The notes beneath the pieces are model-generated. The model did not search any database, was not told where the DNA came from, and worked only from the letters and a program-made list of their open reading frames with translations. From positions 310,001-374,000 of the forward strand of contig JAUSCD010000012.1 of the NCBI GenBank assembly GCA_030651695.1: a DNA stretch of 64,000 nt, read 5' to 3'. Within the stretch, counting starts at the first letter, position 1, and each line of letters starts with the position of its first letter. This DNA is from Pseudohongiella sp. (GTDB lineage Bacteria; Pseudomonadota; Gammaproteobacteria; Pseudomonadales; Pseudohongiellaceae). The position numbers and the translations under genes were made by a program. Positions 29,517 through 30,016 of this stretch are shown piece after piece.

Positions 29517-29670
29517 CTGCATGCGACCAGCTGCATGCTGCCGCGCCCTGTGTAGCTGCTTCGCTGAAGAATGTCAAAAAATACACGGGCACCGTAATAT
29601 TTCTGCAAACAATTTTTTGCCTGAACACGGCATGCTATTTGTCAGAAGCGGGAACAAAATAAATAATTAA

Positions 29671-29694
29671 AAAAGGGAGCTTGCGCTCCCTTTT
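29671..29694 (-). terminator. Intrinsic terminator ending the small transcription unit
   Basis: GGGAGC and GCTCCC pair around a four-base loop; on the minus strand the stem is followed by TTTTTTAATTATTT, a good U-run. On the plus strand only four T residues follow. It lies about 175 bases beyond the 25-codon ORF and isolates that unit from the aminotransferase gene. Confidence 0.85.
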
Positions 29695-29716
29695 CTTCGG
29701 ACTTTTCATCGTGCTT

Positions 29717-29740
29717 TTCTTAATACATTTCTTAATACAT
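29717..29740. repeat. Two perfect 12-bp tandem copies
   Basis: TTCTTAATACAT occurs twice head-to-tail at 29717-29728 and 29729-29740, inside the 3' part of the small minus-strand transcription unit, 23 bases before its terminator stem. It may be a simple slippage duplication. Confidence 0.8.
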
Positions 29741-29868
29741 TTTTAACGCATTGTCTTACATTTACTTACGTTTTTTCGTGATGCATGGCTCCAACGGAAC
29801 CGGCTCAATTCAGCAGGAATTTTCAGGTTTTCACCGGAAAAAACGAGGCTTTCAAGAGCGGAGTGTTA

Positions 29869-29946
29869 TCAAAACAGAAGGGCGTTACTCCCAGCTTTCT
29901 TAATACCACCAACATCCATTGAAACCGTGAACATACCACTAGACAT
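29869..29946 (-). CDS. 25-residue small protein or leader peptide with perfect Shine-Dalgarno
   Basis: Unrecognised small ORF. The ATG at 29946 is preceded by AGGAGGTGATCC, fully complementary to the 16S rRNA 3' end at ideal spacing, the strongest SD in the window. The peptide begins MSSGMFTV, has a central DVGGIKK and ends SNALLF before TGA. It has only one acidic and two basic residues and no cysteine. A TTGACA box at 30016-30011 lies upstream and an intrinsic terminator downstream, so it fits a self-contained RNA of about 320 bases. It could be a small membrane or regulatory protein, a peptide precursor, or the coding part of a dual-function RNA. It lies 103 bases after the acid phosphatase stop. 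Confidence 0.6.
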   Translation of the reverse strand: MSSGMFTVSMDVGGIKKAGSNALLF

Positions 29947-29987
29947 TGGATCACCTCCTCGCTTCTTCTCAGTTGAACATGACAGAA

Positions 29988-30016
29988 GAGTAATCCTCCG
30001 GTTCGAACACTGTCAA
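29988..30016 (-). promoter_or_regulatory. Candidate sigma-70 promoter of the 25-codon ORF
   Basis: On the minus strand a consensus -35 TTGACA is at 30016-30011, followed after 17 bases by TTACTC (29993-29988), a weak -10. The DNA upstream (30020-30045) is AT-rich, as an UP element would be. The -35 is convincing and the -10 is not, so the exact start is uncertain. Confidence 0.45.

Follow-up and report, generated by a model that had tools for sequence, protein, structure and literature searches.

The 64,000-nucleotide stretch of Pseudohongiella sp. DNA analysed here (the window) carries, on its minus strand from 30016 to 29669, a small gene that looks like a member of a structured small RNA (sRNA) family of Alphaproteobacteria and, patchily, of Gammaproteobacteria. 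Judging from sequence comparison, we consider the chances about even that this unit encodes a structured sRNA that is worked as a switch by ribosomes. The parts shared by the family are a site complementary to 16S rRNA, an ATG/GTG-TCN start, a mini-ORF, a terminator, and a helix (P1) that links codons 3-4 with the bases preceding that terminator. A preliminary description of this locus had proposed a self-contained, unannotated and probably translated unit, a proposal that the sequence evidence upholds. The TTGACA, ribosome site, 25-codon ORF and terminator that it had assigned to the minus strand were all found in place (Table 1). Its judgement that the -10 element is weak also holds, and a consensus promoter scan of the window did not list the promoter of the sRNA unit.

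Table 1. Elements of the sRNA unit and their positions in the window
Element	Positions	Strand	Remarks
-35 element TTGACA	30011..30016	-	in 14/14 loci L001-L014, at near-constant distance
Weak -10 element TACTCT, 18-base spacer	29987..29992	-	without entry in the consensus promoter scan
5' stretch GTTCAACTGAG near presumed transcript start	29968..29978	-	TTCAAC frequent in alphaproteobacteria too
Ribosome site AGGAGGTGATCCA	29947..29959	-	13 nt complementary to the 16S rRNA 3' end of congeners
Mini-ORF, 25 codons + TGA	29869..29946	-	relatives keep length and frame, not peptide
P1 5' strand GUGGU, ORF positions +8 to +12	29935..29939	-	cross-class covariation
P1 3' strand AUCAC	29778..29782	-	cross-class covariation
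P2 5' strand GGUUUCAAUGGA	29915..29926	-	within genus, too few changes for a covariation test
P2 3' strand UCCGUUGGAGCC	29787..29798	-	12/12 pairs possible with P2 5' strand, G-U counted
Hairpin GGGAGUAACGCCC in final ORF codons	29880..29892	-	sequence variable among congeners
Intrinsic terminator	29669..29696	-	kept in 14/14 aligned loci

Among 14 loci of the genus (L001-L014), TTGACA lies 51-53 bases upstream of GGAGG in every case, and the Shine-Dalgarno sequence (SD), start codon and terminator are all kept. Loss of the ATG or SD, or a disrupted frame in relatives, had been named as what would count against the ORF; the comparison supports the ORF instead. What the preliminary description called an 'open 3' tail' is not empty, as the 3' strands of the conserved helix lie there, and its length is untypical of relatives. 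About 80 bases between the P1 3' strand and the terminator (within 29776-29691) are unique to the window among the 14 aligned loci, so that the long tail is atypical because of an insertion peculiar to the window. This insertion (29691-29776), absent from the 13 aligned relatives, holds short tandem repeats. In a comparison with locus L009 (positions 1287-1632), the stretch from the ORF stop to the second helix, P2, varied within the genus from fewer than 20 to well over 150 bases, as if this peripheral arm could expand freely.

The ribosome site was compared with 16S rRNA 3' ends taken from congeners (CTGGATCACCTCCTTA). The sequence GGAGGTGATCC occurs a single time in the 3.86-Mb genome of origin, at the sRNA unit; since the 16S gene should hold its complement, that gene is missing from the assembly. 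The complementarity to the 16S 3' end extends over 13 nt in the window and 16 nt in alphaproteobacteria, and the corresponding duplexes reach -26.8 and -30.8 kcal/mol. By one common measure, the window site reaches -21.7, whereas none of the 66 ORFs of at least 150 codons in the window does better than -12.8. In a search allowing one mismatch, where the start codon was not a criterion, ATG or GTG followed in 52/52 rows (20 GTG), a few of these rows being chance sites.

The length of the mini-ORF is tightly held. Among 104 non-redundant loci (<80% alike), 90 have an ORF of 20-28 codons. Dinucleotide shuffling (200 rounds) leaves on average 15.0 and at most 24 such loci, and reading in frames +1 and +2 yields 9 and 7 of 104, respectively. 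Four probably unrelated loci (L149, L152, L153 and L155) were excluded from this count. Stops at codons 8-20 are found at 13/2054 positions in frame 0, and at 83/2054 and 78/2054 in the other frames. The stop codon itself varies (TGA 70, TAA 46, TAG 42), and one clade (L182-L186) has 14-codon ORFs. The preliminary description had favoured a small protein or peptide precursor. This part is not borne out: relatives share the start, the frame and the length, but their peptides drift, the omega-like ratio to expectation being 0.91 over 39 disjoint close pairs. The codon-position bias that it had suggested looking for is missing as well, substitutions at positions 1/2/3 being flat (102/124/124) in these pairs. 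The motif GGAGCAGCCT, present in 57 loci, falls in frames 0/1/2 of 26-codon ORFs 7, 7 and 16 times, and Pfam and NCBIfam gave no match for the three peptides tried. The window's own group (L001-L030) has a ratio of 0.69, obtained from only 51 substitutions, and a weak constraint may act on the peptide there; purifying selection on the amino-acid sequence is otherwise not apparent in these ratios. Altogether, the comparison indicates that selection acts on the ORF as a reading frame and not on the peptide.

The genus fold consists of P1 and P2, which connect codons 3-11 with bases upstream of the terminator. In single-sequence folds inspected by eye, P1/P2 are found in 12/14 loci, the two without them being the window and L009. 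If the folded piece begins close to the presumed 5' end, P1/P2 are absent from the minimum-energy fold of the window and a large part of the SD is masked (mean unpaired probability 0.34); a longer piece of the window folds P2, with a z of -4.27. Outside the genus, the sequence of P1 changes, with strands CAUUG/CAAUG in one clade and AUGAG/CUCAU in Sinorhizobium. We compared base 3 of codon 4 with the base preceding UCAC in 86 of 160 loci, the script being unable to place P1 in the other 74: G faced C in 37/37 cases, U faced A in 24/39 and G in 7/39, and A faced U in 7/9. In alignment A1, 98.1% of the P1 cells are paired. Its 68 sequences come from 79 listed among 99 non-redundant loci, after exclusions for length, doubtful terminator ends and outlying sequence. 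Over the whole structure, A1 has 91 double-change cells; shuffles give 32.4 (0/500 reaching 91), slid controls never exceed 44, and alignment A2 is consistent with this covariation. The genus taken alone has little change to test, and its covariation is not significant (57/500 shuffles as high). A pseudoknot between the SD and an anti-SD inside the ORF was also considered and rejected as a general feature: it reached p<=0.05 in 12% of L031-L148, yet in 15/28 of L149 and later loci.

The distribution of the sRNA was followed with several searches. A DNA-level match was obtained in 27/56 genomes including the genome of origin, some of them at the terminator only. A scan of GTDB for GGAGGTGATCCAATGTCNRGTG returned at least 118 stretches; the titles among the matches listed (80 of 118) include Rhizobiaceae, Hyphomonadaceae, Stappia, Aureimonas, Rhodospirillaceae, Kiloniellales and Pseudohongiella, and also other alpha- and gammaproteobacteria. 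The sRNA also turns up in records with the titles Deltaproteobacteria, Klebsiella pneumoniae and Rhodoferax (L046, L048 and L105), and the title of at least L105 looks wrong. Among 299 genomes from the phylum, model R1 detected the sRNA in 65 (E 0.001), with one row each save two genomes with two. Some sequences in R1 came from a few of the genomes themselves, and among its rows several are marginal, four of them at 4.9e-4 to 8.7e-4. By family code, the sRNA was present in 14/14 genomes of f226, 12/13 of f222, 8/8 of f219, 11/12 of f216, 6/11 of f209 and none of f210, as counted by hand on the assumption of the same genome draw as in the one-mismatch search. One genome (G346) has two distant copies, L263 and L264, each with ribosome site, ORF and a CAU-type P1 start.

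In the gammaproteobacteria at large the sRNA is rare, with 8/274 genomes of the class having it at no more than one mismatch. It was detected in 16/244 genomes of the window's order, the two weakest (L261 and L262) being without the conserved block. Two gammaproteobacteria of family f162 (L259 and L260) have a variant ribosome site, TAAGGAGGTGATCATATGTCGAG, followed by ATATG and an 18-codon ORF; AMSEGR stands near the end of both ORFs. The four loci of the gammaproteobacterial search that were left out of the ORF count look unrelated on reading. Two of them, from one genus (L152, positions 1148-1195, and L153, positions 1501-1548), have GGAGGTGATCCCATGTC, an 11-codon ORF and a terminator, with no recognised P1, and possibly constitute a separate short type.

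Rfam entry RF01867, the Caulobacter sRNA CC2171, is the only named relative that we found; it is said to go back to Landt 2008. The window has no Rfam match at curated cut-offs, and two riboswitches, both located elsewhere, were all that 18 relatives yielded. With permissive settings, the window stretch matched SNORA26 (0.041) and MicX (0.14 and 0.25), none of them anywhere near the cut-off. The same search of Agrobacterium gave CC2171 at 2e-4, and this match opened the link between the family and RF01867. Nine loci (L158-L166), with a GTG-start mini-ORF, are above the RF01867 cut-off, and the CAUUG clade is RF01867; most other alphaproteobacteria fall below. RF01867 is filed as a plain sRNA, and the window copy fails its gathering cut-off; at E 0.001, neither the genome of origin nor the congener G009 nor G048 has a match. 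RF01867 resembles the window unit in its ribosome site, GUG/AUG-UC block, terminator and overall layout. Its closing helix, CAUUGUC/GACAAUG, has one strand close behind the start and the other shortly ahead of the terminator, like the P1 strands in the window, and alignment A1, on which P1 was assessed, includes both types. The window also has the RF01867 5' block GGAGGUGAUCC-RUG-UC. In PMC11701678, on Rfam 15, CC2171 is among the families that gained one covarying pair, and PMC5596092 lists a Mesorhizobium huakuii candidate, MH_s33, as RF01867, with a second span of 215 bases. A functional account of CC2171 was not found in the open-licence literature searched.

The relationship was also approached with a second set of models. 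Matches to model R2 are no clean test, because its alignment, A2, meant to be alpha-only, is not surely so: it includes L042, titled Gammaproteobacteria, and 13 loci of unseen title. In the window, R2 misplaced the P1 3' strand, probably owing to the insertion. Model R3, which replaces R2, was built from 28 titled alphaproteobacteria without CC2171-type members. The window came up as its only hit (1.4e-12), and R3 recovered 23/25 loci of the window's relatives (L023 and L027 were missed) and 5/5 of the CC2171-like loci given; R3 contains five base pairs only, its matches are mostly of sequence, much of it the 16S-complementary block, and its E-values are rough. L022 and L182 match R3 over the 5' block alone. 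In our view, a 5' block that had converged by itself would leave the combination of AGUGA/UCAC, ORF length and terminator unaccounted for, and the window unit is thus a distant relative of RF01867 that fails Rfam's own cut-off.

The Sinorhizobium meliloti copy (L256), where no gene is annotated, has an ORF of 23 residues with a pI of 4.18; it was read in strain Ak57 and has one extra A in the ribosome site. As described in PMC10117765, the S. meliloti protein SEP1 has 23 aa and a pI of 4.18 and is conserved in Rhizobiaceae. It gives a Western signal as a tagged fusion, has the top Ribo-seq translation efficiency of 54 new sORFs, and has a single peptide-spectrum match, below the authors' threshold (PMC10117765). 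From length and pI, we infer that SEP1 is probably the peptide of the S. meliloti copy. SEP1 was reported there as a small protein (PMC10117765), whereas it is read here as the probable by-product of an RNA worked by ribosomes. Another alphaproteobacterial RNA with a short reading frame is alpha_tmRNA (RF01849). A tmRNA was rejected as a candidate: no tRNA-like part is found by Rfam at the window locus, and alpha_tmRNA, present in 8 of 10 genomes, sits elsewhere in each of these 8. Pos19, rnTrpL and Spot 42 are likewise small RNAs with a translated mini-ORF, and PhrS and SgrS are dual-function sRNAs with one. Going by their descriptions, dual-function sRNAs and leader ORFs yield a peptide or a pairing seed as product, whereas frame and length are what is kept here. 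The 'dual-function regulatory RNA' also offered by the preliminary description pointed in the right direction.

The reading that we prefer, a switch worked by ribosomes, would operate as follows. An initiating 30S subunit covers the message to about +15 to +19. As P1 starts at +8, its 5' strand would be covered once a 30S subunit sits at the start site, so that loading and folding would compete; a ribosome at the start and a folded P1 would be mutually exclusive, and a very strong site may be required to outcompete the folding of P1. A ribosome reading the ORF would also open P2 and the hairpin within the ORF, and ribosomes travelling to the stop would hold the domain open. The ORF mostly terminates upstream of the P1/P2 3' strand. 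With ribosomes loading, the 3' half would be single-stranded; with none, P1/P2 would close. The sequence of the peptide need not matter, because 22-26 residues would stay inside the exit tunnel. Candidate outputs of a freed or hidden 3' half are pairing, protein binding or the stability of the RNA alone; the 3' half changes in sequence with P1 between clades, which argues against a single fixed target.

Several other explanations were weighed. The unit might be an ordinary dual-feature sRNA that base-pairs in trans, with an ORF that mainly protects or clears the RNA. This would suit a gene that stands alone between a promoter and a terminator of its own, single-copy in most genomes and without a conserved neighbour outside the genus, and the known relative CC2171 is filed as an sRNA. 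We nevertheless regard it as unlikely, as the P1 strands swap, no stretch beyond the ribosome site is fixed across clades, no common seed was seen, and the ORF length is too tightly held for an incidental ORF. A decoy or sink for 30S subunits, in which ribosomes would be captured by the 16S duplex and held by the structure beyond the start codon, would account for a complementarity of 11-16 nt that is unique in the genome and invariant among family members. Such a decoy needs neither an ORF of fixed length nor a stop, and one copy per genome would require a very high RNA abundance, which makes it quite improbable.

The main reading of the preliminary description, a micropeptide gene with the peptide as product, draws on the conserved ORF and very strong SD, on the translation of SEP1 in S. 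meliloti as reported in PMC10117765, and on the ratio in the window's own group. The ratio over all pairs, the flat codon positions, the occurrence of an RNA motif in three frames and the lack of Pfam or NCBIfam matches speak against it, and we hold it to be very unlikely. Least credible, with hardly any probability left to it, is an attenuator leader controlling transcription of a downstream gene. A mini-ORF is followed by a terminator, in 14/14 loci (L001-L014) the next ORF shares its strand, and S. meliloti does have translation-dependent leaders (PMC12218461). However, a conserved co-directional downstream gene was found inside the window's genus only: the next ORF is co-directional in only 44/93 of L031-L148 and 10/28 of L149 and later loci, and beyond the genus the largest neighbour cluster comprises at most eight loci.

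Going further, the family could, as a tentative proposal to which we give rather less than even weight, be a conserved sensor of free 30S subunits or initiation capacity, in which the ORF would be a dummy, the ribosome the ligand and the peptide waste. On this still speculative proposal, nearly all members of several alphaproteobacterial families would have such an RNA, and scattered gammaproteobacteria would have retained it. The Caulobacter sRNA entry and the S. meliloti micropeptide appear to show the same widespread RNA from two sides. In that case, translation itself, and not its product, would be under selection in a free-standing gene. This would also carry a warning, namely that conserved and highly translated mini-ORFs may lack working peptides.
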